A DNA stretch of 64,000 nt from Gloeobacter morelensis MG652769 (GCF_021018745.1 NZ_CP063845.1:3286001-3350000); one strand, 5' to 3'. Positions 17,740 to 42,261 are shown, counted from the stretch's first letter. Translations and numbers: made by a program. Notes: generated by a model from the letters alone, not told the origin.

Positions 17740-18066
17740 ATGACAACACAAACACCTCTACCGCCCGAATCGACCGATTACCCTGCTTCCCGCCGCATCC
17801 TCGCCGGGGTGGGCTGGGGCGTCCTGTGGGGAGGCGGGATCGCCGCGGTGATTTTTCCGCTGGTGGCCGCCAATCTGACTGTGGGTATCTTGCTGGCGCT
17901 GATCATTTTGATCGCCATCGCGATGGGCATCTCGCTGCACTGGAACGCCGCGCGCGAACCCTGCCCCAAATGCGCCACGGTATTTACCGCTACCCCCAGT
18001 GGCGGACGCTGCCCCAGGTGCGGCGAGCGGGTGCGGGTGGTGGATCGCCGCATGGTCAAGATCTGA
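17740..18066 (+). CDS. Small membrane protein with C-terminal zinc ribbon
   Basis: A 108-residue protein of unknown function. Two hydrophobic segments span about residues 20-45 and 48-67. The C-terminal tail carries two cysteine pairs, PCPKC and RCPRCGER, spaced as in a zinc ribbon or rubredoxin-like knuckle. The tail is basic (RVRVVDRRMVK). The protein is probably anchored in the inner membrane with the zinc finger in the cytoplasm. ATG at 17740 follows the porin terminator by about 55 bp, so it has its own promoter. It converges with the sulfatase gene, the two stops lying 10 bp apart. Confidence 0.7.
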   Translation: MTTQTPLPPESTDYPASRRILAGVGWGVLWGGGIAAVIFPLVAANLTVGILLALIILIAIAMGISLHWNAAREPCPKCATVFTATPSGGRCPRCGERVRVVDRRMVKI

Positions 18067-18076
18067 ACCATCTGAG

Positions 18077-20581
18077 CTACGGGTAGGGGATATCGCGCAC
18101 CAGTTCTCCTGTACCGGCGTCGCGCAACTGGAGCTTCAGCACGCCGCTGTCCGGGTTGGCAAGCAGCACGGCCAGTTCTGCCTTGCCGCTGCCGTTGGTG
18201 TCGGCCAGTACCTCCAGGTCTCTGGCCAGAAAGTTCTTGTCGAAGGTGATCTGCCGGCTTGCTCCGCTTGCTATGCCTTTGAGAATCACTTGATTGGCGT
18301 GAGCCTGGCCTGTCCCGAGCACGGCAATCTCGGGGCCGCCCTCAGCTGCCACCATCGCCATGGCCCGGGCGTACACCAGGCCGGGATAGTCGAGGGTCGC
18401 TATCGTGGTGCCGGTCTTGCTGTCTTTGACCGTGACGCTGACCGGCGCGTTGCCCTGGAGGACGGCGACTTCAGGGGCGCCGTTGCCGCTGAGATCCGGC
18501 AAGCCGACCAGGTCAGGCACACCCGTCACGCTCTGGAGGGTAACCGAACTGAGGGTCTGCTTGCTGAGCGGGTCAATCACTTGATAGTACGGGTCGGCGG
18601 GCTGCTGCGAACCGGCCACCTCCTTGAGCCTCGAAAGCCAGAGCACCACGAATTCGGGTTTGCCGTTGCCGTTGATATCCGGTATCCAGCCGAAGGTGGC
18701 CGGCTCCTGGGCAGCCAGTCCTCCCGCAGGCGGCGCACCGAGCGAAACGGTGGTCTTGCGGCCCGTTCTGGTGTCGAACAACTCGATGCGCCCCTCCTTG
18801 CCGGAGAGCACGGCAATTTCGGGGTAGCCGTTGCCGCCGAGGTCGGGATAGACATCTAGCTTGCCGACATCGCCAGACGGACGCACTTCGCGGATCAGTG
18901 CACCGCTGAGGGAGTCGCGCACCTCGATGAGCCGGCCGCTCTTATCGGCGCTCAGGCTCTGCACCGCCACCTCGTAGGCACCGTTGCCGTTGACGTCCGG
19001 CAGGGCAATCGCTTCGACCTCCGGGAAGAGATCGTCCCGGTAAGTCATTTGGCCCAGCAACCCACCGTCGCGGGCAGATTTGCGGTAGACGCGGTACCGG
19101 TTGGGCCAGGCGGTCATGTCCGTGCGCAAAACGGCCGGGTTGTTCTCGCCCACTTTTTCAAGCAAGTTGTTGCCGAAGGAGGGACTGTGCACCAGCAGGT
19201 AGGGTGCCATGCCCTTGGTGCTGTAGCGCATCTGGGCGAGGGTTGTCTGCAGTTCCGCCACCTGCGCGCCGTAATCCGCCACACCCACGGCGTTGTCCAG
19301 TTCGTAAGGGTCGCCAATCAGGTTATAGAGTTCCTGCTCCCCCGCCAGGTTTTCCATATATTTCCAGGCGGTTGAGCGCACGCCCGCGTGGGTGGGGGTC
19401 AGTTGCCAGCCCTCGAACAAGAACTGCTCGCGCCAGGAGACTGCCTGTCCTTTGAGAATCGGCAGCAGGCTGCGGCCGTCCACGGTCGCGGGAATCGCGA
19501 TACCGGCCGCCTCGGCGATCGTGGCGGTCAGATCCATGTTGAGCACCAGCAGCTCCTCCTGCCTGGCTGCGGTGGACACGCCCGGGAAGGAAACGACCAT
19601 CGGTACGCGCAGGCTCTCCTCGTAGCTGCAGCCTTTTTCCCACCAGCGGTGCTCTCCCCAGGTCAAACCGTTGTCCGAGGTGAAGATGACCAGGGTGTTC
19701 TCCCGCTGCCCGGTGCTCTCGAGGGCCTTGAGGATCGACTCGACGCCGTCGTCGACCGCCAAAAGCATCTCCAGATAGGCCTGGCGTTCTTTGTCGTAAT
19801 CGGTCTGGGTCTGGGGGCTGGCCGGGCGCAGCTTCTGCACCCAGGTGGGCTTGTCTGAGACATCCTGTTCGTTGTAGTTGGGCGGGCGCCAGGGGGGGAC
19901 ATCGGCGTAGCGCCCGGCGTGCCTTGGTGCGGGGGTATAGGGAGCATGGGGGGCAAACGGTGCTAGAAACAGGAAAAAAGGCTTGTCGCTTGCTGCCGAA
20001 TTGGTGATGAAGGCCACGGCCTTCTGGGTCAGCACATCGGTGGAGTAGTTGGATTCGCTGCGCCCATAGTCTTCGGTGGTGCCGTTGGCGTTGATCCGGT
20101 AATTGTAGTAACCGGCTAGTTGAAAGGTCTGCCATTCGTCCCACCCGGGGGGCGTGTAGAACGCCGAGTAGCTGTAGCCGTTGAAGTATTTACCGAATAG
20201 ACCGGTGCGATAGCCGCTCTCCTGCAGCCAGACCGGGAGCGTCGAAGCGTCGTAGAAGGCGAGTGCTCCGCCAAAAGGCGCGTCGTTGCCCAGCACGCCG
20301 TGGTTGTGCGGGTAGCGGCCGGTCAAGATCGTGGCCCGCGACGGACAGCACAGCGATTGACCTGCGAAGGCGTTGGTGAAGGTGACCCCCTGAGAAGCGA
20401 GCTGCGACTGGAGTTTGGGCATGTACGCGAGGGTGTTCCAGGCCTGGTCGTCTGTCACGATGAGCACGACATTGGGCGGGGGGGCGGCGATAGCTGCGGC
20501 GGTGCTCAAGAACATCCCAATGGCGGCGGTCGCGGCAGAAGCGAGGGCGGATGGCACGGCGGTGGGCGGGCTGCTGTTCAT
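18077..20581 (-). CDS. Exported sulfatase with C-terminal propeller-like repeats
   Basis: An 834-residue exported sulfatase. After a signal peptide (about 1-33) come VLIVTDDQAW with the metal-binding Asp44-Asp45 pair and LCCPSRATILTGR, in which Cys78 is the residue expected to become formylglycine. GYRTGLFGKYFNGYS resembles the glucosamine-6-sulfatase/SULF subgroup. The catalytic part ends near 500. The remaining 330 residues hold about six repeats of the form PD-x-NGNG-x-PE-x-AVL (LPDVNGNGAYEVAVQ, YPDLGGNGYPEIAVL and others), related to FG-GAP/VCBS propeller blades. It is the last gene of a seven-gene operon, with GAGGTGA seven bases before ATG. Substrate is unknown. Activity would need a formylglycine-generating enzyme, which is not in this window. 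Confidence 0.88.
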   Translation of the reverse strand: MNSSPPTAVPSALASAATAAIGMFLSTAAAIAAPPPNVVLIVTDDQAWNTLAYMPKLQSQLASQGVTFTNAFAGQSLCCPSRATILTGRYPHNHGVLGNDAPFGGALAFYDASTLPVWLQESGYRTGLFGKYFNGYSYSAFYTPPGWDEWQTFQLAGYYNYRINANGTTEDYGRSESNYSTDVLTQKAVAFITNSAASDKPFFLFLAPFAPHAPYTPAPRHAGRYADVPPWRPPNYNEQDVSDKPTWVQKLRPASPQTQTDYDKERQAYLEMLLAVDDGVESILKALESTGQRENTLVIFTSDNGLTWGEHRWWEKGCSYEESLRVPMVVSFPGVSTAARQEELLVLNMDLTATIAEAAGIAIPATVDGRSLLPILKGQAVSWREQFLFEGWQLTPTHAGVRSTAWKYMENLAGEQELYNLIGDPYELDNAVGVADYGAQVAELQTTLAQMRYSTKGMAPYLLVHSPSFGNNLLEKVGENNPAVLRTDMTAWPNRYRVYRKSARDGGLLGQMTYRDDLFPEVEAIALPDVNGNGAYEVAVQSLSADKSGRLIEVRDSLSGALIREVRPSGDVGKLDVYPDLGGNGYPEIAVLSGKEGRIELFDTRTGRKTTVSLGAPPAGGLAAQEPATFGWIPDINGNGKPEFVVLWLSRLKEVAGSQQPADPYYQVIDPLSKQTLSSVTLQSVTGVPDLVGLPDLSGNGAPEVAVLQGNAPVSVTVKDSKTGTTIATLDYPGLVYARAMAMVAAEGGPEIAVLGTGQAHANQVILKGIASGASRQITFDKNFLARDLEVLADTNGSGKAELAVLLANPDSGVLKLQLRDAGTGELVRDIPYP

Positions 20582-20638
20582 CGGTGGTCACCTCGTTGCA
20601 ATGGAAGGGTCAGATCAAACGGATTTGCGTTTGCGCAT

Positions 20639-22051
20639 TTAAGAGGTCACCCGGAAGCGGCGGGCGCTGGTCGCTGTGCCGGCCGCAGTGGTGACGGCGA
20701 TCGGGCCGCTGGTCGCTCCTGCGGGCACGATGGCGGTGATCTGTGTGCCTGAGATCACGGTGAATTGGGCGCCCACGCCGCCAAAGGTCACGGCGGTGGT
20801 GCCGGTAAAACCGGTGCCGGTGATCGTCACCTCGGTGCCGACCGGCCCGCGCCGGGGGGTAATGGAGTCGATCACGGGTGCTGCGGTCCCGTCGCCGGTG
20901 TTGATGAGCACCCCGACGTTGCTGGCAAAACCGTTGGCGACCGCCAGGTCGAGATCGCCGTCCCCGTCGAAGTCGCCTGCCTCGACGCCGGTGGCCCCGT
21001 CGCCGCCGGTGGCGAAGGTGAGTGCGGCGGTGAAGGTGCCGTTGCCGTTCCCCGGCAGCACCGAGACGTTGCCGGCATCCCTGCGGTTGGCGGTGATCAC
21101 ATCCAAATCGCCGTCCTCGTCGAGATCACCGATGGCAATGGCCACGGGATAATCGCCCACGGCAAAGTTGCGGGTGGCGCCGAAGGTGCCGTTGCCGTTG
21201 CCCAGCAGTACCGAGACGTTGTCGACGCCGCGGTTGGCTGTGACGAGATCCAGATCGCCGTCTCCCTCGAGATCGCCCACGACGACATCGGAGGTGCCGC
21301 CCGCAGCAGGGTAATTCTGGGGAGCTGCGAACGTGCCGTTGCCGTTGTTCAACAGTACCGAGACGCTGCCGGAAAAGACGTTGGCCGTCACCAGGTCCGG
21401 GTCGCCGTCACCTTCAAAGTCCGCGATGGCCAACGCAGAGGGGCCGGAGCGGGAGGGAAGGACAAGGTTGCGGGGCGCACCGAAGGTACCGTTGCCGTTG
21501 TTCGACAGCAGCGAAAGATTGTCGGAGTAGCGGTTGACACTGATCAGGTCGAGATCGCCATCGCCGTCGAGATCGCCTGCCGCCACGTCGGCGGGAAACG
21601 TTCCGTTGACTGGATAGTTCACAGCCGTGGCAAAGGTACCGTTGCCCCTACCCGTCAGCACCGAGAGATTTCCTGAAGTGGTGTTGGCCGAGATCGCGTC
21701 GAGATTGCCGTCGCCGTTGAGATCGGCCAGGGTGGGGACATAGGGCCTGCTGCCGACCGGGAAGTTCTGCAAAGTTCCGAAGGTGCCGTTACCGTTGCCC
21801 AGCAGTGCGGAGAGCGCGCTGTTGCCGAGGTTGGCGGTGACGATGTCGAGGGTGCCGTCTCCATCGAGATCGCCGATGGTCATACCGCGAGGGGTATCCC
21901 CCACGCCAAAAGTCTGCGCAGGAGCAAATCCTATCTGTGCCTGAACTGGTGCGGCGCTCAGCGCCAGCGTCGAGGCCAACCCGAAACCGATAAGCCGCGC
22001 TTTTCGGCTGGATAGGGTCGGGAGCAGTGTCGAAAAGATCTTGAGAAGCAT
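20639..22051 (-). CDS. Exported FG-GAP/VCBS propeller with C-terminal IPT/TIG domain
   Basis: A 470-residue secreted protein. The signal peptide ends near APVQAQ (residue 39). Seven calcium-binding-like FG-GAP repeats follow, each with D-x-DGDG-x-LD (for example GDLDGDGTLDIVTANL and GDLEGDGDLDLVTANR), interleaved with LLGNGNGTF motifs. Seven repeats fit one seven-bladed beta-propeller. The last 85 residues form an immunoglobulin-like IPT/TIG domain (ITPRRGPVGTEVTITGTGF). The likely role is carbohydrate or protein binding outside the inner membrane. It sits 38 bp after the hydrolase gene and 57 bp before the sulfatase gene in the same operon. Its ribosome-binding site is weak. Confidence 0.85.
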   Translation of the reverse strand: MLLKIFSTLLPTLSSRKARLIGFGLASTLALSAAPVQAQIGFAPAQTFGVGDTPRGMTIGDLDGDGTLDIVTANLGNSALSALLGNGNGTFGTLQNFPVGSRPYVPTLADLNGDGNLDAISANTTSGNLSVLTGRGNGTFATAVNYPVNGTFPADVAAGDLDGDGDLDLISVNRYSDNLSLLSNNGNGTFGAPRNLVLPSRSGPSALAIADFEGDGDPDLVTANVFSGSVSVLLNNGNGTFAAPQNYPAAGGTSDVVVGDLEGDGDLDLVTANRGVDNVSVLLGNGNGTFGATRNFAVGDYPVAIAIGDLDEDGDLDVITANRRDAGNVSVLPGNGNGTFTAALTFATGGDGATGVEAGDFDGDGDLDLAVANGFASNVGVLINTGDGTAAPVIDSITPRRGPVGTEVTITGTGFTGTTAVTFGGVGAQFTVISGTQITAIVPAGATSGPIAVTTAAGTATSARRFRVTS

Positions 22052-22089
22052 AATAAGTACCCGATGAAACGACCTTTATGAACAGCGCA

Positions 22090-23091
22090 TTAAAAACAGG
22101 CCCACTCCCGTGCGTAGGCAAAGTCGCGCTCGTTGGCGGGAGCGGTGTGGGGTTTGTCGGTGGGAGTGGTGAGTTCCACCCAGTTGTGATTAGGATTCGA
22201 TTCGCTTGTGGATTTTCGCAGGCCGAGCGTCTTGTAGTTAGCTGCGATCCCCGCGTAGTATTGATCACCCTGGTGCACCACCCCCCGAATGCGCTCGACG
22301 GGCGTTTGCCAGGACTTTTCGCCCACCCAGTGGGCGGAGACGGTCTCGACCGAGCCTCTGGGTGGGTCGGCCTGCGTGGTGGAATCGACCGGGGAGGCCA
22401 GAAAACACAAACGCTCGACGGTTTGATCCCGGGCGAGGTACCCAGCGTGTCCTCCACCCTGGCTGCTACCCCCCAGGCGCAGCTTGCGCCAGTTGATGGT
22501 CTTGCCGCTGATCGCGGCTGGAAAGGGAAAGTCCGCGGGCAGGTAACGCTTGAGAAAACCGATAAGCGCGTCGAGGCGATGGACGATGCTGTTGGCCTGA
22601 TCGACCTGCACCTCCGAAGCGACCGATGTGCCGTAGACAATCTCTTCGCGAACCGCTCCGTAGCAGCTGCTGCGGTTGCCGCAGAGGGTGCCGACCGGAT
22701 CGGCGTTGGCATGGGCCAGCGAGATCACCAGGTAGTTTTGGGCCATCCCCTCCTCCATGCTCTGGCCGGGGGTGAACAACTCCTGACCGGGATCGAACGG
22801 TTTGCCGCCCGAGCCCAGCAGATATAGAAATACTCCTTGCAGGCGATCGAGATGCTTGGGAATGCCCACGACATGGTAGCCGTAGCCCCGGCCGGAACCG
22901 TCGTCGATGGTGCGGTCGGTGAGGCTCGGTTGGATGGCGCAGACGACACCGGCAGGCACGTCGAGCTGGCTGTCGGTTCTCTCCGGACAGACGGCCACCG
23001 GTTGCGCCTGCGCCGGGGCAAGCCATAGGACGGTGCCTACCGATAAACTGCTCAAAGTAAACTGAACGCACGGGTGGATGCAGCGCGGCAT
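22090..23091 (-). CDS. Exported GxSxG hydrolase-like protein (paralogue B)
   Basis: A 333-residue exported protein with a signal peptide ending at QAQ (residue 30). RLGGSSQGGGHAGYLARD carries a GxSxG nucleophile elbow with candidate Ser210, as in alpha/beta hydrolases. A conserved Cys pair (TLCGNRSSCYG) and terminal Cys residues suggest disulfides and periplasmic or extracellular location. It is clearly paralogous to the product of 27474-28481: shared stretches include VCAIQPSLTD versus VCVIQPSLTD, GYGYHVVG, EGMAQ versus EGIAQ, and P-x-DKPHT versus P-x-NKPHT. The general look recalls the poorly studied BPSS1187-type family. An esterase role is an inference. AGGAG lies six bases before ATG. 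Confidence 0.7.
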   Translation of the reverse strand: MPRCIHPCVQFTLSSLSVGTVLWLAPAQAQPVAVCPERTDSQLDVPAGVVCAIQPSLTDRTIDDGSGRGYGYHVVGIPKHLDRLQGVFLYLLGSGGKPFDPGQELFTPGQSMEEGMAQNYLVISLAHANADPVGTLCGNRSSCYGAVREEIVYGTSVASEVQVDQANSIVHRLDALIGFLKRYLPADFPFPAAISGKTINWRKLRLGGSSQGGGHAGYLARDQTVERLCFLASPVDSTTQADPPRGSVETVSAHWVGEKSWQTPVERIRGVVHQGDQYYAGIAANYKTLGLRKSTSESNPNHNWVELTTPTDKPHTAPANERDFAYAREWACF

Positions 23092-23127
23092 AGGATTCTC
23101 CTGGGTGGATGGGCGTGGCGGACCCCG

Positions 23128-24303
23128 CTACGGCTGAGCCGGCCCGAGCCCGGTGTCGACGCGGTAGATCGAAGTGGTGCCGGGGACGGAGATGCTCGTG
23201 AAGTAGATATACGGTCCTTTGTCGGTGATGAAGACCTCCGGATCGAGGCGTACCCTCGCTTCGGGCGCGCTCAGCTGCCGGTAGAGGGGAGCGGCCGGAT
23301 CAACCCCCGCAAGCCAGATGTCCGACGGGGTGATGAGCTTTTCTTCACTGGTGCCGCTCACGGTCGAAGTCGTCATCGAAATGTACGATTTGCCGTTGTG
23401 CACAAGGATTTCTGGAGACAGGATGTACGGCCCGACCGATGGGGGCCTCAGCGCATGGATCTTTTGCCAGAGGCCATCGATTTTGCGGTACACGTCGATG
23501 CGCAGTTCGGCCACGACGGTAAACAATACGTATTCGTTGTTGAACTCCGGGGCCCGCCACATGACACTGGCCGATTTGGAGACGGAGTCGAAGGTGAGCT
23601 GTTCGTAAACTTTGGTGTCGATGTCGTACAGGTACACCTGCGAGACGCCCTGGGCATCCAATTTGTTGACCAGCATGGCGCGCAGCCCCGGCACCCAGCG
23701 GCCCGGAAACAGGGTGCCGGACAGAATCTCTTCGCTAGCCGGGTCGTCGAGTTTGCGCCAGTAGTTGCGCACCTGGACGATCGACTCGCTTTCGAAGTAG
23801 TAGGCGTAGGAAATGCGCGGCTCGGAATCAGCGGCGTCGGGGCTGCCGAAGGGCAAATAGCGGTTGGCGCTGCCCGGCAGAACCTCGCCAAGCCAGTCAG
23901 TGCCGTCGAAGCGGGCGCGGCCGATAGCAAAGCGACCCTCGCCGTCGTACTTGGTATAGACCACCTGGGCTCCGGCGCTCGAGAACGCCCACTCGGGTCC
24001 GTTGCGGGTCAGTTTTGGCGGCACCGCCCCGGTGTCCACCAGCACGCCTTTGCCGTTGCGCGGTGAGAAGCGGCCGCTTCTGCGGCTGACCTCGCCTACC
24101 CAGACATTGCCCTCGCCGTCGATCCAGCAAAAGCGGCCCCCCGCTTGATCAAATTCCGGATCGCTGATGCCCACTTGCGGCCCGGCGATCAAAACATCTT
24201 CGCCAACCTGGGCCAGGGAAGGCGGCTGCCAGGCCAGGGCCGCGCAGCTAAAAAGCATCGCAACAACGGCATAACGAGAAAAACCGAGGGAAGGGAAATG
24301 CAT
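23128..24303 (-). CDS. Exported TolB-like beta-propeller protein (paralogue 1)
   Basis: A 391-residue exported protein beginning with a signal peptide (about 1-30, ending SLAQ). The body is beta-rich with blade-like repeats such as GGRFCWIDGEGNVWVGEV, GAQVVYTKYDGEGR, VYLYDIDTKVYEQLT and SYISMTTSTV, reminiscent of TolB/WD40-like propellers. It is strongly related to the product of 41107-42261 over the whole length (DPEFDQ, VDTGAVP, NGPEW, VHNGKSYI, DPEVFIT, GPYIYF, YRVDTGLGP). ATG at 24303 is chosen over GTG at 24309 because CGGAG then has a nine-base spacing. No catalytic motif is visible. It is fourth in the sulfatase operon, so it probably binds the same substrate or scaffolds the enzymes. 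Confidence 0.72.
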   Translation of the reverse strand: MHFPSLGFSRYAVVAMLFSCAALAWQPPSLAQVGEDVLIAGPQVGISDPEFDQAGGRFCWIDGEGNVWVGEVSRRSGRFSPRNGKGVLVDTGAVPPKLTRNGPEWAFSSAGAQVVYTKYDGEGRFAIGRARFDGTDWLGEVLPGSANRYLPFGSPDAADSEPRISYAYYFESESIVQVRNYWRKLDDPASEEILSGTLFPGRWVPGLRAMLVNKLDAQGVSQVYLYDIDTKVYEQLTFDSVSKSASVMWRAPEFNNEYVLFTVVAELRIDVYRKIDGLWQKIHALRPPSVGPYILSPEILVHNGKSYISMTTSTVSGTSEEKLITPSDIWLAGVDPAAPLYRQLSAPEARVRLDPEVFITDKGPYIYFTSISVPGTTSIYRVDTGLGPAQP

Positions 24304-24372
24304 GGTCACTAACTCCGGAATGGAAAGAACGTGTCTTGAAAAAGTGGAGGATGGAAGAGCCCTATGAACCGG

Positions 24373-25902
24373 CTAGCGAAAAAAGCCCTGGGAGGTGCCG
24401 ATTTTGCCGACCACAGCGTCTTCGAATCCGGCACTGGTGAGGGTGGTATCGCCCCATTGGGCGGTACCCTCGAAAAATCCGCAGTAGATATAGTTGCCCA
24501 GGTTGTCGGCGGCCACGGCGTAGGAATAATCATTTCCCGAACCGCCCGTGGGCGTGCTGAGCGAGAGCGGTGCCCCGCTCGCGCCGTCGAGTAAGCCGAT
24601 CAAAAAGTCGGTGCCGCCCTGGGAGCGCACCCGCGTCGAACCGAAGGTGAACCGGCCGCTGTAGGCCCCGGCGATGATCACGTTGCCGCCGATGTCGAAG
24701 TCCACCTCGGTACCCTCGTCGTCGCGACGGCCGCCGAACCCGCGGACCCACACCAGATCGCCGCCGCCGGTCAACCGGGCGACAAAGATATCCTCACCGC
24801 CTGCGGAGGTGAGGACGGTGGAGGTACCCAGGACGTTGAAACTGTTTTCAAACTTGCCCCCGAGCACCAGATCGCCGCCAGTCCCGGCCACCCCCCGTAT
24901 GACGTCGTCGCCGGTGCCGCCGATGGAGCGCGCCCACAGCCAGTCGCCGCCGGGGCCGAGGCGACCGATAAACGCGTCGGCCCCCCCCGCCGCGGTCAGG
25001 CTCGTCGAGCCGTGGCGCGTCGTGCCCTCCAACTGCCCGCCCACAAAGATATCCCCGGTGCCGTCCCTGGCCAGGCCGAGCGCCCGCGCCTGATTGGTCG
25101 CGCCGGGAGTCTGCCCCTCGGTGCGCTGCACCCACTGGAAATTGCCGTCGCTGTCGTATTTGACGATAAAACCGTCGAAATCGGCCGTCACCCCCACCGG
25201 CGGGGTGCCGTCGAAACTGACCCGGGTCGTCTGGTCGCCGCCAAAGGTTCCGGAGATGATCACAGCTGTGGCGTCGACTACACATTCCGAGCCCAGCACC
25301 GGGATGGCCAGGTTCGAGACGACCTGTGCTCCCGGCGTCACATTGCCGGAGACGTACCGCCCGCTCGCTCTGGCCCAGAGCACCTCGCCGTCCGGGTTGA
25401 GTTTGACGGTGAAGGCGTCGGGAGCCAGCCTGCGGCTGTTGGGGGGCGGCACCAGGTTGGAAGTGAGGGTTGTACCGCCGAAGCGAACGGTGCCCGTGAA
25501 TAGCCCGGTGACGTAGACATTGCCCACCGCATCCACGCAGTTGGCCAGCGCCTGATCCTGCAGGGTGGAGCCGAAGGACCTGGCCCAAAGCAGCGCGCCC
25601 TCCGGGCTATATTTGGCCACGGCGATGTCCTCTTCACCGGCACTGGTGAGCGTCGTGCCGGAGTTTGAAAATGTGGCGGTGTCGCCGAAGGTGCCGCTCA
25701 GATAGATGTTCCCGGCATCATCGGTGTCGACCCCGCGCCAGATCTCGGTGGGGATCCCCCCCTCGCGGTAGGTGGCGCTGCCCATCCGTTGCGCCCAGGT
25801 GGTGGGCTGGGCGTGCAGAGGGCCGTAAATGGCCGCTCCCAGCAGCAAAGTGCCGCCGAAGGAGAGGACCAACGAAAGTCGCAGCATTTGAGGTGTCAGC
25901 AT
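24373..25902 (-). CDS. Exported SBBP-type seven-bladed propeller protein
   Basis: A 509-residue exported protein with a signal peptide (about 1-31). It contains seven repeats of the SBBP type, each with a core like GNIYLSGTFGDTATF, then LTSAGEEDIAVAKY and LLWARSFGS. Variants include GNVYVTGLFTGTVRF, GDIFVGGQLEGTTRH and GNVIIAGAYSGRFTF. Seven copies fit a single seven-bladed propeller. No catalytic residues are evident. It lies 27 bp after sulfatase A and 69 bp before the TolB-like gene in the same operon, so it likely serves as a binding or scaffolding subunit. AGGA precedes ATG by nine bases. Confidence 0.83.
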   Translation of the reverse strand: MLTPQMLRLSLVLSFGGTLLLGAAIYGPLHAQPTTWAQRMGSATYREGGIPTEIWRGVDTDDAGNIYLSGTFGDTATFSNSGTTLTSAGEEDIAVAKYSPEGALLWARSFGSTLQDQALANCVDAVGNVYVTGLFTGTVRFGGTTLTSNLVPPPNSRRLAPDAFTVKLNPDGEVLWARASGRYVSGNVTPGAQVVSNLAIPVLGSECVVDATAVIISGTFGGDQTTRVSFDGTPPVGVTADFDGFIVKYDSDGNFQWVQRTEGQTPGATNQARALGLARDGTGDIFVGGQLEGTTRHGSTSLTAAGGADAFIGRLGPGGDWLWARSIGGTGDDVIRGVAGTGGDLVLGGKFENSFNVLGTSTVLTSAGGEDIFVARLTGGGDLVWVRGFGGRRDDEGTEVDFDIGGNVIIAGAYSGRFTFGSTRVRSQGGTDFLIGLLDGASGAPLSLSTPTGGSGNDYSYAVAADNLGNYIYCGFFEGTAQWGDTTLTSAGFEDAVVGKIGTSQGFFR

Positions 25903-25929
25903 GATCTAATTTCCTGTGGGTCCGTTGGT

Positions 25930-27477
25930 TTATTGGTCTTCGAGCTCTCGGCAAGTGGTGCCGCTGCACAGACGCAGCTCAGAGGCGAGCGCACCGAGGG
26001 CGGCGGCTGTGTCGGGTTGGTCAAGGTGTCGGCTTTCGAGTTGGGTGGGATCGGCGTCTAGCGCGTACAGTTCCCGCTCGCCGTTGTCGAATTCGATAAA
26101 GACCGTGTTGGGGTAATCGGTGTCGCGGCTGCCGGTGCGCACACCGGTGCTGTTGCCGGAACCGCGTACGTCGCCGTGTTCCAGCAAAAAGCGCTTGCGC
26201 CATCCCGGCAGTTCGGGATTGGCCAAAAGCGGCACCAGCGACCGGCCGTCCACCGTCAACGTTGGGGTAGCCCCTGCCCACGCGGCGATGGTCGGGGCCA
26301 GGTCGATGTTGACCGCCAGTTGCCCGACCAGGCGCGCTGCCGTGCTGTCCGGCAACCGCACGACCAGAGGCACCCGGATCGATTCCTCGTAAATCACGTT
26401 CTTGCCGGTCAGGCGGTGCTGGCCGAATAGATAACCGTTGTCCGAGGTGAAAAGCACGATCGTGTTGCCCAGGACGCCGCGGCGCTCGAGGGCGGCGATG
26501 AGCGAGGCCGTCAGATCGTCGACGGCGCGCAGCGATTCGATCTGATCGCGGTAGATGTTGCCCAGACAGTCGATGCTGCGCTCGCTGAGCAGGGGGGCCG
26601 CCTGCACCCAGGTGGGTTTGTCGGAAACGTCCTGTTCGTTGAAGGCCGCTCCCTGGGGCAGCGGTACCTGGCTGGCGCTGCCCTGGTGGCGCGGCGCCGG
26701 GCGAATCGAGCGCAGGCTGTTGGGAAACAGACGGCAGGAGGAAACGCCGGGGGCCACCTCGAAGTGCGGGGCCACGGGGGCCACGCTCAAAAAGAAGGGT
26801 GCTGTGGCGGCCGCGTCGACAAACGCCACCGCCCGCTCGGCCAGAACGTCCGTCTGGTACTCCTCCGGCGGTTCGGCCGGATCTTCGCCGTAGTCAATCA
26901 GCGTGCCGTTGTCGTTGAGCACGTAGTTGTACATGGTGCCGGTGATCAGTGCCTGCCAGTCGTCCCAGCCCGGCGGAATATAGGTCGGATCGTCCAGGGG
27001 GCTGCGCCGGTTGCGGTCGGACCCGTAGCCGTTCAGGTACTTGCCGATATACCCGGTCCGGTAGCCCGCCGCGTCCAGCCAGGTGGCAATCGTCGATCGA
27101 TCGTCGAAGGCCGAAATAGACCCGTCCGGCGGGGTATTGCTCTCGACGCCATGGTTGTGGGTGTACTGCCCGGTCAACAAAGTCGCCCGCGAAGGACAAC
27201 ACAGCGACTGGGTGGTGAAAGACTGTCTGAAGCGGGTGCCCTGATTGACCAGCCGACTGGCGATCGCCGGCAAAAATCCCCGGCCCAATGCCTCGTCGAA
27301 CACCTGCTCAGAAAGATCGTCGGTCATGATCACCACGACATTGGGGGGCTGCTGGGCAACGGCCGCCGTCGACATCAGTGCCAGGCCCAGCCACAAGCAC
27401 ACGGCACACCGGACAAGCCCGGCCCAGGCAAGCGACCCCGGATTTGGACGGTGTTGAAAAGTGCCGGCTGTTTTCAT
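25930..27477 (-). CDS. Exported sulfatase (paralogue A)
   Basis: A 515-residue sulfatase with a signal peptide ending near AVAQ (residue 42). The metal-binding pair Asp53-Asp54 sits in VVIMTDDLSE. The formylglycine motif is LCCPSRATLLTGQ with Cys93, followed by YTHNHGVE. GYRTGYIGKYLNGYG and NEQDVSDKPTWVQ are shared with the sulfatase at 18077-20581, showing common ancestry. Unlike that protein it has no C-terminal propeller and is close to the usual family length. The start codon overlaps the stop of the upstream hydrolase in ATGA, so the two are translationally coupled. TGAGGA is six bases before ATG. Substrate unknown; the motifs lean to the glucosamine-6-sulfatase/SULF subgroup. Confidence 0.9.
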   Translation of the reverse strand: MKTAGTFQHRPNPGSLAWAGLVRCAVCLWLGLALMSTAAVAQQPPNVVVIMTDDLSEQVFDEALGRGFLPAIASRLVNQGTRFRQSFTTQSLCCPSRATLLTGQYTHNHGVESNTPPDGSISAFDDRSTIATWLDAAGYRTGYIGKYLNGYGSDRNRRSPLDDPTYIPPGWDDWQALITGTMYNYVLNDNGTLIDYGEDPAEPPEEYQTDVLAERAVAFVDAAATAPFFLSVAPVAPHFEVAPGVSSCRLFPNSLRSIRPAPRHQGSASQVPLPQGAAFNEQDVSDKPTWVQAAPLLSERSIDCLGNIYRDQIESLRAVDDLTASLIAALERRGVLGNTIVLFTSDNGYLFGQHRLTGKNVIYEESIRVPLVVRLPDSTAARLVGQLAVNIDLAPTIAAWAGATPTLTVDGRSLVPLLANPELPGWRKRFLLEHGDVRGSGNSTGVRTGSRDTDYPNTVFIEFDNGERELYALDADPTQLESRHLDQPDTAAALGALASELRLCSGTTCRELEDQ

Positions 27478-28481
27478 AGCGAATCCTCAGAAGCAAAACA
27501 GGCCCAGGCGCGGGCATCGACTAGATCCCGGTGGTTGGCGGGGGAGGTGTGGGGCTTGTTGGTGGGTATGTTCACCGCCAACCAGTCGTTGTTGGGGGTG
27601 AGGGTGCTGGTGGAGCGCCTGAGCCCCAGGGCGCGGAAGTTGGTGGTGATGCTCTCGTAGCTGCCGTCCTGGCGGTGGACCACCCCTTTGAGCCGCTCGG
27701 CGGGGGTCTGCCAACCCTCCTGGGCGATCCAGTCCACGGCCGAGTAACGGGTGGTGCTCTCGGTGGTCACAGCGACGGTGTCCACCGGCGAAGCGAGAAA
27801 GCAGACCCCCTCCGTGGGGTAATCGTGGGCAATGTATCCGGCGTGTCCTCCTCCCTGGCTGCTGCCGCCCAGGCGCATCGCCTGCCAATCGATAGCGGCG
27901 CCGCGGATGGCCTGCGGCATGACCACCCCATCGGGCATGTTCGCTTTGAGGTAGGCCACCAGGGCTGAGAGGCGGTGCATAATGCTCTGCTCAGGGGGAA
28001 TTTCCACTGCCGCCGAGACCGGTGAGCCGTAGATAATTTCTTGCCGGGCCGGGCCGTAACATTCACCGTCGTTGCCGCACAGATCGGCGACCGCCACATC
28101 GTTGGGATAGGCAAGCTGCAGGACCACAAAGCCCTGGGCGATCCCCTCCTCGACGATCGAAAGGCTGGGAAGGCTCTGGCTGACCGGGTCGTAGGGCTTG
28201 CCGTTGGTGCCCATCAAGTAGAAAAACACCCCCCGGGCGGCGGCGATGTCCGTGGGCAGACCGACGACGTGGTAGCCGTAACCCAGGTTGGTGGTGCCCC
28301 GATCGGCAACCTCGGGATCGGTGAGACTGGGCTGAATGACACAGACCACCCCGGCGGCGGTGTCGTGTTGGGCGTGCGCCCCGCTCGGGCACAGGGCGGT
28401 AGCAGCCTGAGCCGACATAGACTGCAGCGAGCATGCCAGAACGGCTCCGACCAGCGATGCGAAGCATGTGCGGATATTCAT
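27474..28481 (-). CDS. Exported GxSxG hydrolase-like protein (paralogue A)
   Basis: A 335-residue exported protein and the first gene of the sulfatase operon. The signal peptide ends near SAQA (residue 26). RLGGSSQGGGHAGYIAHD provides a GxSxG elbow with candidate Ser208. The Cys pair DLCGNDGECYG and terminal WACF match paralogue B at 22090-23091. The frame is open upstream to 28565, but ATG at 28481 is chosen because CAGGAG sits seven bases before it and the signal peptide starts there. The stop overlaps the sulfatase A start by four bases. The pairing hydrolase-then-sulfatase implies joint action, perhaps on a substituted polysaccharide or an ester-bearing glycan. Function is inferred. Confidence 0.72.
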   Translation of the reverse strand: MNIRTCFASLVGAVLACSLQSMSAQAATALCPSGAHAQHDTAAGVVCVIQPSLTDPEVADRGTTNLGYGYHVVGLPTDIAAARGVFFYLMGTNGKPYDPVSQSLPSLSIVEEGIAQGFVVLQLAYPNDVAVADLCGNDGECYGPARQEIIYGSPVSAAVEIPPEQSIMHRLSALVAYLKANMPDGVVMPQAIRGAAIDWQAMRLGGSSQGGGHAGYIAHDYPTEGVCFLASPVDTVAVTTESTTRYSAVDWIAQEGWQTPAERLKGVVHRQDGSYESITTNFRALGLRRSTSTLTPNNDWLAVNIPTNKPHTSPANHRDLVDARAWACFASEDSL

Positions 28482-28755
28482 AGTCGAACTCCTGAGAACC
28501 GGCAAAAACGGGTCGTAGGTTGCGGCTGTGACAGACCAAGCCAAGCGAATCCGCCCGCTTCCCAACCAAGGGGACGCAGTAAAATGCGAACCTAGAGCAC
28601 ACCCATACCGGCCGTGCGGGCTTCAGCCGCAATCGACCACAACGTGGGTGCAGGGCAGGGAAGACCGAGATTACGCAAACCGTCAGGTCTCAACCTGCGA
28701 ATATCACAGTCGCTCGAAAACCATAGAACTGCTGGTAGTACCTGGCAACGGCACT

Positions 28756-28789
28756 GCGCTGCCTGCCCTAAACTTTGGGCAGGCGGCGC
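28756..28789. other. Strong hairpin in intergenic region
   Basis: Arms GCGCTGCCTGCCC and GGGCAGGCGGCGC (one G-T pair) enclose an 8-base loop TAAACTTT. Only a TTT follows on the plus strand, so it is not a textbook terminator. It may be part of a structured RNA or a relic of a mobile element. Confidence 0.5.
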
Positions 28790-28884
28790 TTTCCAGGGAA
28801 AAAACTCTTTGCGTTCGGTGCAGCCGAACTGCAACGGAACCAAAAACACAGATCTTTGTACATGATGCGTTACTCACAAACGTG

Positions 28885-29443
28885 GAAGGGAATAAACTGG
28901 GGAAACCGAAACCGCCTGGGGACTTCTCTCACTTATAGGTTGATGCATAACCGGCTATGCAGCTAGCGTCTAAACGCTTAGGAACAAAGACGGATAGCCA
29001 TCGACCCCCGGGTGGTTTTTGCACCGACCGTCTGAAGCCTGTCTTTGTACAAAACAACAAGACCAAAGAGTTGCATGAATTTTGGGACAAGCAGCAGGTG
29101 ATGCGATATTTCCAATCGCACGGGCGAGTGCAGCAGCGACGGGCGACTGCAGATTGCAGTCTATAAACCGGCGCTTTCAAGTTTGATCAAAAAATGTCAA
29201 ATCCAAAATCTCAGCTGCATCGCCGATGGTCAGAACGGCCGGATGCAGGCGGCATCGACGGCGCTCCGCTTCAATCGCCGCTGAGCCGTGCTGTGCTCAC
29301 CAATCCTGGGCGGCCGGAACACTGAGGGCAAACTGTTTTGCATGGTATTGACCTGTGAACTAGGAAGGGAAACAAAACCGAAACTCGAAACCTACCCTTA
29401 ACCTCTTCAACCTATAGTAGACACCCCAAATCGACTATGCAGC
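28885..29443. repeat. Degenerate direct repeat bracketing about 480 bp
   Basis: Two stretches, about 28885-28965 and 29363-29443, share in the same order the blocks GGAAGGGAA, AACCGAAAC, ATAG and CTATGCAGCT, with spacing differences between blocks. The repeated unit is roughly 80-90 bp, with copies about 480 bp apart. This could be decayed ends of an inserted element or two copies of an unknown regulatory or RNA unit. Confidence 0.4.
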
Positions 29444-29553: not shown

Positions 29554-30435
29554 TCAACGGATAGCCCGACGCACGGCAATCAGACTGCCGAGCATACCCA
29601 GGGCGATGCCCACGCCGAGCAAGATGAGCGGCAGGGTGAACGCAGCGCGCTCCGAGGGCTGCCATTGCAAAAACGGCAGCAGTTCGAGCTGTTTTTGGGC
29701 GACAACACGGCTGGTGGCTTCGATCAACCCCCAGGCGATCAGCGCTCCGGCCACTCCGAAGGCGAGCCCTTCGAGGATGAACGGCATCGAGATGCGCAGA
29801 GGGGTGGCCCCCACCAGCTGCATCACTTCGATTTCTTTGCGCCGCGACTGGACGATAAGCCGGATGGTCGAAGTGATCACCGCCACAGTCGCCACCCCCA
29901 GAACGGCGGTGAGGGCAAGCCCCATCCAGCGCATCGCCTGCTGGATCTGATCGAGCCTCTGGGCCGCCTCGGAGCCGTAGCTCACCTCCTCCACCCCTTC
30001 GATCTGCTGGATCTGGGCGGCCAGGGGCGCCACCGCCTCCGGCTGGGCGATGCGCACCCGCAGGCTGTCGACCAGCGGGTTGCCCCCCAGGCTTTCGCCC
30101 GGATCGCTTCGCACTCCGAGGTCTTTTTTGAGGGCCGCCCAGGCCTGCTCCTTCGAGACGCTTTTGATTTCGTCGACACCCACCAGCGTGCGCAAATCCG
30201 GCTCCACGGCAGCAGCGCGCACACCGGGATCCAAGTAAATCGAGATTTCCAGGCGGCTGCCCAGATCGGAGACCGCGTCCTGCAACTGCCAGGAGGCCCG
30301 CAATCCCAGCCCCAACAAAAACAGCAGCACCGCCAGGGTGCTCACGGCGGACCAGATCATCCAGAGGTTGCGCCGCAGGCCGGTAAACGCCTCGCGCAAC
30401 AGATAATCCACCTGGGTAGTGACGCGCTGGATCAT
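29554..30435 (-). CDS. ftsX: Cell-division ABC transporter permease FtsX
   Basis: A 293-residue FtsX. The layout is classic: a cytoplasmic N-terminus ([16 protein letters not shown]), TM1 (residues 20-45), a periplasmic loop (about 46-165, [19 protein letters not shown]) and three C-terminal helices with [21 protein letters not shown] after TM2. With FtsE it couples ATP hydrolysis to activation of septal peptidoglycan hydrolases. The start is placed at ATG 30435. An open extension to 30546 overlaps ftsE and lacks family character. The gene begins 13 bases after the ftsE stop, so it is cotranscribed with it. Confidence 0.92.
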
Positions 30436-30448
30436 GGTGTGGGGACGT

Positions 30449-31177
30449 TCAGGTGAGCACCGGCAGTTCCCGCAGGATGCCGGCTTCGAGGCGGACGACA
30501 CGGCGGGCAAAGGCCTCGACGAGTTGTTCGTTGTGGCAGGTGACAATCACCGTGACGCCCAGATCGTGCAGGCGCTTGAGAATCTGCAGCACCGACCAGG
30601 CGTTGTGGGCGTCCAGGTTGCCGGTGGGTTCGTCCGCGAGCAACAGCGGCGGCGTGTGCACCACCGCCCGGGCGATGCTCACCCGCTGCTGCTCGCCTCC
30701 CGAAAGCTGGTCCGGAAAGCAGGCGGCCTTGGGGGCGAGGCCCACCATGCGCAAAGTCGGTCCTACCCGCCGCTGGATCTCAGCCCGGCTCGCGCCCTGG
30801 GCGTGCAGGACGACGGCGACATTCTCCTCGACGGTTTTGGTGGGGATCAGTTGATAGTCCTGAAAGACGACGCCGATGCGGCGGCGCAGGTGGGCAAGCG
30901 CCCGACCGCGCAGGCGATGGAAGAGATTGCCCTCGATTTCGACCTGGCCCTCGGTGGGCGCCTCGGCCCCGTAGAGCAATTTGAGCAGCGTCGATTTGCC
31001 CGCCCCGGACGGGCCGGTGATAAACAAAAAATCGCCTTTGCGGATCTGGAGATTGACACTGTGCAGACCGCGGCAGCCGTTGGGATAGACTTTGCTGACA
31101 TTGTGCAAACAGGCGATCGCCTCGCCGACAAACCCGGTGCCGTCTGCCTCGGTTGGGGTGGATGGCAAGTCGAACAT
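30449..31177 (-). CDS. ftsE: Cell-division ABC transporter ATP-binding protein FtsE
   Basis: A 242-residue ABC ATPase. Walker A is GPSGAGKST, the signature [14 protein letters not shown], Walker [13 protein letters not shown], and the switch histidine is in [26 protein letters not shown] and [16 protein letters not shown] are typical FtsE phrases. The start at ATG 31177 has GAGGAG ten bases upstream. It overlaps the stop of the upstream glycosyltransferase by one base (TGATG), so translation is coupled. Together with ftsX downstream it forms the FtsEX complex at the division site. Confidence 0.93.
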
Positions 31178-31902
31178 CAACGGCCCACTCCTCTTAAGAT
31201 GGCCAGGGCGAACCTGGGCAAGGCCAGCATGCGTTTGGCCCGCCAGGGTTCGCGGTACAGGCGATAGAGCCACTCCAGATAGTTCTCGCGCAGCCAGCGG
31301 GGGGCGCGCTCTTTGCTCCCCGACCAGATGTCGAAGCTGCCCCCGACGCCGACAAAGACCACGTTGGTCAGCCGCCTGCGGGCCCGCTCAATCCAGTACT
31401 CCTGCTTGGGCACTCCCAGTCCGGCCAACACCAGCTGCGGCCGGCTGTGGGCGATGCCTTCGAGGAGCGCCGATTCTTCGTCCGGACCAAAAAATCCGTC
31501 GCGCGCCCCTGCCACCACCAGGCCCGGGTACTGCCGCCGCCAGCCCTCTCCGACCGCCTCGGCCACCCCAGGAGCCGCGCCCAGCAAAAAGATGCGGGTG
31601 TGTCGGGGAGCCAATTGCTGGAGGGCCGATTCGACCAGGTCGATGCCCGCGCAGCGGCGTACCCGGCGTCCAACCCGCTGCAAAGCCCAGACCACCCCTG
31701 CCCCGTCGGGCACCACCAGGTCAGCCCGGCGAATCAAACGGGCCAGACGCTCCTCGCGCTGGGCGAGCATCGCCATCTCGGCGTTGAGGGTAATCACATA
31801 GCCCCCCTGGCCCGCTTCCACCAGTTCGACGAGCGCATGGGTATAATCTGCGGACAGGTGTACAGGCAGATCCAAAATTGGTGCGGTGGGTAAAGCAGTC
31901 AC
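31177..31902 (-). CDS. WecG/TagA/CpsF family glycosyltransferase
   Basis: A 241-residue protein of the GT26 (WecG/TagA/CpsF) family. The conserved phrases are VITLNAEMAMLAQRE, ADLVVPDGAGVVWALQ, FLLGAAPGVAE and LGVPKQEYWIE, plus the C-terminal WLYRLYREPWRAKRM. The family transfers UDP-linked N-acetylmannosaminuronic acid or N-acetylmannosamine to lipid carriers in teichoic acid, enterobacterial common antigen or capsule synthesis. The start is GTG at 31902. Its stop overlaps the ftsE start by one base, so surface-polysaccharide synthesis and FtsEX are expressed together. The exact sugar is not readable from sequence. Confidence 0.88.
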   Translation of the reverse strand: MTALPTAPILDLPVHLSADYTHALVELVEAGQGGYVITLNAEMAMLAQREERLARLIRRADLVVPDGAGVVWALQRVGRRVRRCAGIDLVESALQQLAPRHTRIFLLGAAPGVAEAVGEGWRRQYPGLVVAGARDGFFGPDEESALLEGIAHSRPQLVLAGLGVPKQEYWIERARRRLTNVVFVGVGGSFDIWSGSKERAPRWLRENYLEWLYRLYREPWRAKRMLALPRFALAILRGVGR

Positions 31903-40994: not shown

Positions 40995-41106
40995 GCAGAC
41001 CAGACCACTATAGCCAGAACGAACGTCGCCCTGGCGACTGCCGCCCCTTCCCGGTTGTGATAGCAATACTTTGTGCTCAAACGGTTCTGCGTTTTTGGAT
41101 CCTTCC

Positions 41107-42261
41107 ATGCATAAAAAGCTGTGTGTGTGCGCCCTTACGCTTCTGACCCCCCTGGCGATTGCAGGGGCCTGGCGACCACCCTTGCCCGCCGCTGCCCAGA
41201 GCGGGCCGACCGATGTGCTGGTCTCCGGCCCGAGCGAGGTGGTCGATCCGGAATTCGACCAGCAATTCGCGCGCTTCACCTGGAATGACGACCAGGGCAA
41301 CGTCTGGATCGGCAAGGTCGATCAGGCCACGGGTGATTTTTTGCCGCCCGCCGGCAACAACATTCTGGTGGACACCGGTGCGGTGCCGGTCGCCGTCTCC
41401 GGCAACGGTCCTGAGTGGGTCTACACCGCCGCCGGTCCCCAGATCGTCTACACCAAGTACGGAACCAACGGGCGCATCGCCGTCGCCCGCGCCCGGGAGA
41501 ACGGCTCAGTCTGGTCAGGCGGGATCATCGAAGACGGCGAGAACCGCACCTTTCCCATCGGCAGCCAGGACCGCCGGGATCCGGCCCCCAGGCTTTCCTA
41601 TGTCGGGCGCAACAGTGCCGGCAAGCAGGTGACCCTCTGGCGCGAACTCGACGATGCCGCCTCCGAAGCAGAAGTCCCCAACGCCCTGCCGCCGGGCGGG
41701 CGCTGGGTACCCGGCAGGCGCGAGCTGGTCTTCATCGGCAAAGCCGGCCGGAGCCGACAGGCGTTTCGCTACGACGTCGATAGCCAGCAACTCGAACAAC
41801 TCACCGACGACACCGGTCAAAAATTCAACATCCTCATGTGGCAGGCGCCGGAATTCGACAATGAGTACGTGTTTTTTACGCTGACCGACGAGACCTCGAT
41901 CGGGGTGTACCGCCAAATCGCAGGCACCTGGACGAAGATCAATACGCTCAAGCCGCCCGCGGCGGGTCAGTACATCTGGTCGCCGGAAGTGTTCGTGCAC
42001 AACGGCAAGTCCTACATTTTCATGGTGACTTCAACCAGCCGCGATCAAAATAGCCGCACTGTGCCGACCGATATCTGGATGGCGGGTATCGAGCCGGATG
42101 CGCCCTTCTACCGGCAGGTAAGCGATACGTCGCTCAAAGTGCGCAAAGATCCGGAAGTATTTATCACCGCCCAGGGACCGTATATCTATTATCTTGCTTT
42201 GCCGGATCCGCAGACGAGTACGATCTACCGGGCGGACACGGGGCTGGGGCCGACCCGATAA
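41107..42261 (+). CDS. Exported TolB-like beta-propeller protein (paralogue 2)
   Basis: A 384-residue exported protein with a signal peptide ending near PAAAQ (residue 32). Blade-like segments include FARFTWNDDQGNVWIGKV, GPQIVYTKYGTNGR, RQAFRYDVDSQQLEQLT and EYVFFTLTDETSIGVY. It aligns from end to end with the operon protein at 23128-24303 (VLVSGP versus VLIAGP, VDTGAVP, NGPEWVYT, APEFDNEYV, VHNGKSYIF, TIYRADTGLGP). No catalytic motif seen. It stands alone next to tRNA-Pro, outside the sulfatase operon. ATG 41107 is preferred to 41071 because the signal peptide begins there. It converges with the gene at 42269, seven bases apart. Confidence 0.75.
   Translation: MHKKLCVCALTLLTPLAIAGAWRPPLPAAAQSGPTDVLVSGPSEVVDPEFDQQFARFTWNDDQGNVWIGKVDQATGDFLPPAGNNILVDTGAVPVAVSGNGPEWVYTAAGPQIVYTKYGTNGRIAVARARENGSVWSGGIIEDGENRTFPIGSQDRRDPAPRLSYVGRNSAGKQVTLWRELDDAASEAEVPNALPPGGRWVPGRRELVFIGKAGRSRQAFRYDVDSQQLEQLTDDTGQKFNILMWQAPEFDNEYVFFTLTDETSIGVYRQIAGTWTKINTLKPPAAGQYIWSPEVFVHNGKSYIFMVTSTSRDQNSRTVPTDIWMAGIEPDAPFYRQVSDTSLKVRKDPEVFITAQGPYIYYLALPDPQTSTIYRADTGLGPTR

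Follow-up and report, generated by a model that had tools for sequence, protein, structure and literature searches.

Gene content of the locus

We analyzed seven consecutive genes on the minus strand of Gloeobacter morelensis MG652769, located at 28481-18077 of a 64,000-nucleotide window (NZ_CP063845.1:3286001-3350000), to which all positions below refer unless another genome is named. They constitute a real, conserved operon-like unit that is assembled from known protein families, including sulfatases, putative serine hydrolases and beta-propeller proteins. The genes are numbered by position and run from g7, the first, to g1, and the gaps between them in this order are -4, 27, 63, 36, 38 and 57 bp, where the negative value corresponds to an ATGA overlap between g7 and g6 at 27474-27477. 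All seven open reading frames were found where a first-pass annotation of this DNA had placed them, and its description of a minus-strand series with gaps under 70 bp and a single ATGA overlap is confirmed.

Families were assigned by Pfam and NCBIfam profile searches of the proteins. The first gene of the unit, g7 (27474..28481), encodes a putative exported serine hydrolase of 335 amino acids from the BPSS1187 family (NF047580, 183 bits against a curated cut-off of 125), and g3 (22090..23091; 333 amino acids) encodes a second putative hydrolase of this family (146.7 bits, same cut-off). Sulfatase B, a putatively exported cysteine-type S1 sulfatase of 515 amino acids with the LCCPSR motif at residue 93, is encoded by g6 (25930..27477; PF00884, 1.2e-50), whereas sulfatase A, with 834 amino acids, sulfatase residues at approximately 36-452 and LCCPSR at 78, is encoded by g1 (18077..20581; PF00884, 9.6e-58). 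The remaining genes encode three propeller proteins: g5 (24373..25902; 509 amino acids) is an SBBP beta-propeller protein (PF06739, 22.6 bits, marginally above the gathering score of 20.5; NF047494, 1.2e-22, under its cut-off); g4 (23128..24309; 393 amino acids, GTG start) is a TolB-like beta-propeller protein, as judged from a fold model, and belongs to a multi-copy Gloeobacterales family; and g2 (20639..22051; 470 amino acids) is an FG-GAP propeller with eight repeat matches (PF13517, 6.6e-71) and a C-terminal TIG domain (PF01833, 1.3e-12). This is the family mix reported in the first-pass annotation, which did not mention that the C-terminal half of g1 is also FG-GAP-like (FG-GAP_3, 1.5e-5, just short of the cut-off).

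No named system matching this gene set was found, in line with the earlier remark that it has no standard name, and no characterized Gloeobacter sulfatase cluster was found in a literature search whose coverage mostly excludes subscription journals. Within the literature searched, the unit is a previously undescribed combination of known families and, as far as tested, is restricted to one Gloeobacter lineage.

Conservation and origin of the unit

The identical gene order was found at the same genomic place in two other genomes of the Gloeobacter lineage, G. violaceus and a metagenome-assembled genome (MAG) of Aphanocapsa lilacina, with g2 tandemly duplicated (two copies) in G. violaceus. Proteins of G. 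morelensis and G. violaceus are 81-98% identical, and the ratios of non-synonymous to synonymous substitution rates (dN/dS) between the two species are 0.14, 0.27, 0.17, 0.16, 0.09, 0.16 and 0.19 for g1 to g7, respectively. Since the order is conserved and the genes are under purifying selection in related genomes, the seven-gene unit stands well beyond chance. Moreover, local gene order is generally poorly conserved among Gloeobacter genomes (PMC13237429), which makes the shared order of seven genes meaningful. Synonymous divergence from G. violaceus is 0.44, 0.24 and 0.38 in g2, g3 and g4, compared with 0.13-0.14 in g1, g5, g6 and g7; this two- to threefold elevation at 20639-24309 possibly reflects recombination or gene conversion with paralogues.

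The unit is bounded upstream by an FtsX-like gene (29554..30546, minus strand) that marks the insertion point and adjoins an FtsE-like gene (30449-31273, minus strand), both named by sequence reading; non-coding DNA of more than 1 kb separates g7 from ftsX on the same strand. Downstream lies a plus-strand gene for a 108-amino-acid protein with a zinc-ribbon-like C-terminus (17740..18066), which is convergent with g1 and has its stop 10 bp away. In G. kilaueensis and in a second genus of the family, ftsE, ftsX, the 108-amino-acid gene and a porin gene are contiguous, and no trace of the seven genes was found between ftsEX and the porin gene. These two outgroups with an empty site suggest that the insertion took place in an ancestor shared by the three carriers, and on this comparison the unit is best described as an island of about 11 kb gained within Gloeobacter. 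Its G+C content of 63.8% is the same as that of the flanks, so the island, if foreign, has been ameliorated. An origin from a phage or plasmid was considered and rejected, given this G+C content and the lack of a BPSS1187 match among plasmids.

Sulfatases and their maturation

Both sulfatases score far above the PF00884 cut-off of 25 bits (196 bits for g1 and 173 for g6), and the best PDB sequence match for both is the N-acetylglucosamine-6-sulfatase 5g2v (2.6e-55 and 8.1e-37, respectively). Each keeps LCCPSR together with the DD and DN of the metal site and the lysine and histidine residues, which are invariant in comparison with relatives from Fischerella and Rubrobacter; the invariant alignment positions are D44, D45, C78, P80, S81, R82, K131, H212, D303, N304 and K316, whose metal-binding and catalytic roles are presumed from the family. 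Compared with the GlcNAc-6-sulfatase types S1_11 (5g2v, 7p24) and S1_6 of SulfAtlas family S1, g1 and g6 have the same domain, CCPSR motif, and metal and catalytic residues, but their identity to these enzymes is distant, the KxH site reads KYFN or KYLN, and g1 carries the additional FG-GAP-like half.

Sulfatases of the g6 type are rare, being present in three of 386 sampled cyanobacterial genomes including G. morelensis. Relatives that are 34-37% identical occur on plasmids of Nonomuraea, Rubrobacter and Fischerella, and none of the other island genes was found in the annotated neighbourhoods of these relatives (the record from Nonomuraea carries no annotation). On the Rubrobacter tropicus plasmid, two sulfatases, one of them g6-type (38% identical), belong to an overlapping operon that resembles the Gloeobacter unit; unlike the latter, it includes an arylsulfotransferase and has no propeller or BPSS1187 genes. 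PF00884 proteins as a whole were present in 11 of the 11 genomes checked. Secreted cyanobacterial sulfatases have also been reported from Shark Bay mats, where all those in the MAGs had signal peptides and, in the authors' interpretation, are required for modification of the cells' own envelopes (PMC9723792). In view of both observations, the earlier statement that such a system is unexpected in a cyanobacterium was too strong.

Formylglycine maturation requires either a formylglycine-generating enzyme (FGE) or a radical S-adenosylmethionine (radical-SAM) maturase (anSME). A profile search of the G. morelensis genome yielded two PF03781 genes. One is a genuine FGE, with the GGSYLCSETHCQRYHVAAR motif and the paired-cysteine signature GGSxLC...CxRYxxAAR, located outside the unit and beside a third sulfatase; the other was rejected as an FGE because it is EgtB-like and followed by an EgtD-like frame. 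The FGE of A. lilacina is likewise intact and adjoins other sulfatases.

Green algae have extracellular arylsulfatases that are induced by sulfur starvation and believed to scavenge sulfate, and the GKYLNGY motif that replaces KWH presumably recalls GNS. These features bear on the main functional rival to the role proposed below, namely that the operon is induced by sulfate starvation, its sulfatases free sulfate from environmental esters, and the other genes help to capture the substrate. Green-algal sulfatases fall in the GNS/SULF branch (PMC4659905), and SulfAtlas places GNS, SULF and the Volvox arylsulfatase in S1_6, with the bacterial mucin-desulfating enzymes in S1_11 (PMC5066984). Such scavenging leaves the five non-sulfatase genes unexplained, however, and the unit has no linked sulfate transporter or regulator; we consider it unlikely.

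Hydrolases, propellers and their expansion in Gloeobacterales

The g7 protein has the motif GGSSQGGG, with S208, D234, H269 and H311 invariant, and across 18 BPSS1187 homologues GxSxGGG, one aspartate, two histidines and six cysteines are invariant. The six cysteines suit an exported protein, and together these residues would fit an exported serine hydrolase of the alpha/beta type. The family itself is functionally uncharacterized; in the literature found, the Burkholderia BPSS1187 gene appears just as a target or marker for the polymerase chain reaction, and the operon offers a functional handle on it. We counted five BPSS1187 copies each in G. morelensis, G. violaceus and A. lilacina, compared with a single copy in G. 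kilaueensis and two copies in a related family. Proteins g3 and g7 are 49% identical and are not sisters in the tree; they are old paralogues. Local duplication of a hydrolase-sulfatase pair was rejected on this ground and because sulfatases A and B are unpaired in a small tree. In a related Gloeobacterales genome (L031 6516-13862), two adjacent BPSS1187 proteins of 1226 and 1115 amino acids have long TIG-repeat tails.

No Pfam or NCBIfam family matched g4. A low-confidence model built from a shallow alignment (predicted local distance difference test, pLDDT, 54) consists of beta structure only, and in a fold search it came closest to TolB, prolyl-peptidase, lectin and WD40 propellers; the name 'TolB-like propeller' is therefore fair for the fold and not for membership in the Tol-Pal system, which was rejected since there is no TolB family match and no tol-pal genes adjoin. 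The g4 family numbers 7-12 copies per Gloeobacter genome and was detected in two of the 386 sampled cyanobacteria, G. morelensis itself included, the other case being one distant relative. A paralogue 51% identical to g4 stands alone on the plus strand of the same window (41071-42261). In both G. morelensis and G. violaceus, g4-type genes also form arrays of three to five members on mixed strands; one of these copies carries an internal stop, and the family seems to undergo active gene birth and decay.

The single BPSS1187 gene of G. kilaueensis is fused to TIG repeats; its neighbours are five g4-type genes, an SBBP protein and a GloVer-repeat protein, and no sulfatase adjoins this cluster. 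Four of the five types of island parts thus stand side by side, and hydrolase, propellers and TIG again occur together where sulfatases are lacking; the cluster differs from the island in order, strands, the fusion and genomic place. Parts of the island belong to putatively exported families that are expanded in Gloeobacterales.

The main sceptical rival builds on these observations. It holds that lineage-expanded exported families have accreted into a loose bundle, co-expressed at the surface with no common substrate, in which the sulfatases are cargo. The sulfatase-free cluster of G. kilaueensis, the separate arrays of TolB-like genes, the old paralogy of g3 and g7, and the loss of sulfatase A in A. 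lilacina are all consistent with it. Against it, the exact order persists in three lineages despite the poor neighbourhood conservation in Gloeobacter (PMC13237429), selection is strongly purifying, and the genes are joined by short gaps and one overlap. We regard such a bundle as rather unlikely.

Predicted export and co-transcription

The first-pass annotation had ascribed signal peptides to all seven products. This is plausible for six of them, in which basic, hydrophobic and AxA-like regions are recognizable by eye at the N-terminus. It is less clear for g1, which has no lysine or arginine ahead of the hydrophobic stretch, and by hydropathy alone 1-16% of shuffled sequences match the N-termini of the seven proteins. 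With respect to co-transcription, a search for promoters on the minus strand inside the unit gave no match, and terminator-like matches occur at shuffle level (13 compared with 11.2 expected). Candidate terminators after g3 and g7 were rejected, as these matches sit on the 3' coding sequence of conserved WACF protein ends and are no more frequent than in shuffles.

Proposed role in the cell envelope

We tentatively propose, at somewhat less than even confidence, that secreted products of the unit remove sulfate and acyl groups from a polymer outside the cell, perhaps from the sheath of the organism itself. The seven genes would be transcribed as one operon and their products exported to the periplasm, envelope or sheath. 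There, the two formylglycine sulfatases resembling GlcNAc-6-sulfatases may remove sulfate esters from an extracellular glycan, and the two BPSS1187 serine hydrolases would probably strip ester-linked acyl groups from it. The three stand-alone propellers and the propeller-like tail of sulfatase A might bind or hold the glycan. The likeliest target is the sulfated sheath polysaccharide of the cell itself or of its mat, in which case the operon would serve to remodel or recycle polymer at the cell surface and to free sulfate. This is put forward as the best explanation of what was directly observed, namely gene content and order, conservation, island origin, intact sulfatase residues and one genuine FGE elsewhere in the genome. 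Gloeobacter is a basal cyanobacterial lineage devoid of thylakoids; to our knowledge, little is known about how it handles its sheath, and the operon provides a defined, lineage-specific target for studying this.

Remodelling of the own sheath is favoured because the unit has no depolymerases or importers and because secreted cyanobacterial sulfatases are thought to act on envelopes (PMC9723792). Like sulfatase-containing polysaccharide utilization loci, the unit groups several sulfatases, putatively exported, with putative esterases in a single operon; unlike them, it has no glycoside hydrolase, polysaccharide lyase, SusCD, transporter or regulator. Assignment to this type of locus was rejected, since depolymerase and import genes are absent from the seven genes and immediate flanks. 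Use of a foreign sulfated polymer, derived from algae, mosses or animals, as a carbon source would be in keeping with the frequency of sulfatases in such loci, and with the ribose uptake genes acquired by Gloeobacteraceae, which may be photomixotrophic (PMC13237429). Glycoside hydrolases, polysaccharide lyases, SusCD-like proteins and ABC importers are all missing from the genes and flanks just named, and this leaves it a slim chance.

Several observations weigh against the proposed desulfation and deacylation. By the Pfam and NCBIfam searches, none of the seven genes encodes a glycoside hydrolase, polysaccharide lyase, transporter, regulator or sulfotransferase. For the BPSS1187 family there is no Pfam match and no related solved structure, a distant profile search of the PDB gave chance hits only, and the fold model is poor (pLDDT 44), too weak for a structure search. 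In A. lilacina, g1 (L029 8774-9247) has lost nucleotides 125-482 and 792-2309, including the CCPSR site; the remainder is 92-97% identical, which indicates either a recent loss or an artefact of the assembly, this genome being a draft MAG. In G. violaceus, the sole FGE-like sequence (L096 1474-1989, G001:C1:2948310-2948750) is a pseudogene that carries an in-frame stop and is truncated, ending ahead of the C-terminal half; its first half is 71% identical to the A. lilacina FGE. A search for anSME gave a sole radical-SAM match, far under the maturase cut-off. Both operon sulfatases of G. violaceus are nevertheless intact, keep CCPSR and are under purifying selection.

That G. violaceus retains two intact sulfatases alongside a truncated gene for the maturase raises a question of its own. 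Either this species has an unrecognized maturase, or formylglycine is unneeded there, or the FGE loss is too recent to show. The second option corresponds to sulfatase-fold proteins that, at least in G. violaceus, function as phosphodiesterases or binding proteins and do so free of formylglycine. The pseudogene, the failure to find a maturase and the sulfatase dN/dS of 0.14-0.16 speak for it, but every copy retains the complete formylglycine signature, G. morelensis and A. lilacina do have an FGE, and an unknown maturase could exist; we rate it very unlikely. A broader version, in which a Gloeobacter-only envelope-remodelling operon makes its sulfatases, BPSS1187 hydrolases and propellers into one exported assembly, with the G. 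violaceus sulfatases matured independently of FGE or acting formylglycine-free, is quite doubtful.

Returning to secreted desulfation, the earlier suggestion of an extracellular system processing a sulfated polymer is upheld in part. An operon-like unit of putative exported sulfatases and hydrolases, conserved in order and rare in cyanobacteria, is present; a sulfated or polymeric substrate is not established, and the lack of polymer-cleaving, transport and sulfotransferase genes, the sulfatase-free G. kilaueensis cluster and the G. violaceus FGE pseudogene count against that part.

Leader region

The unit is preceded by a conserved non-coding leader of about 530 bp (28482..29012, minus strand), a candidate promoter or operator region that accompanies the island in all three carriers and is 92% identical to its counterpart in G. 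violaceus and 83% to that in A. lilacina. A riboswitch was rejected, as Rfam gave no match at E values up to 1. At the far end of the leader, a block of about 70 bp (approximately 28922-28990) is near-invariant in the three species and contains part of an inverted repeat. This block, which in G. violaceus falls inside a 23-nt inverted repeat, is a candidate operator or promoter.

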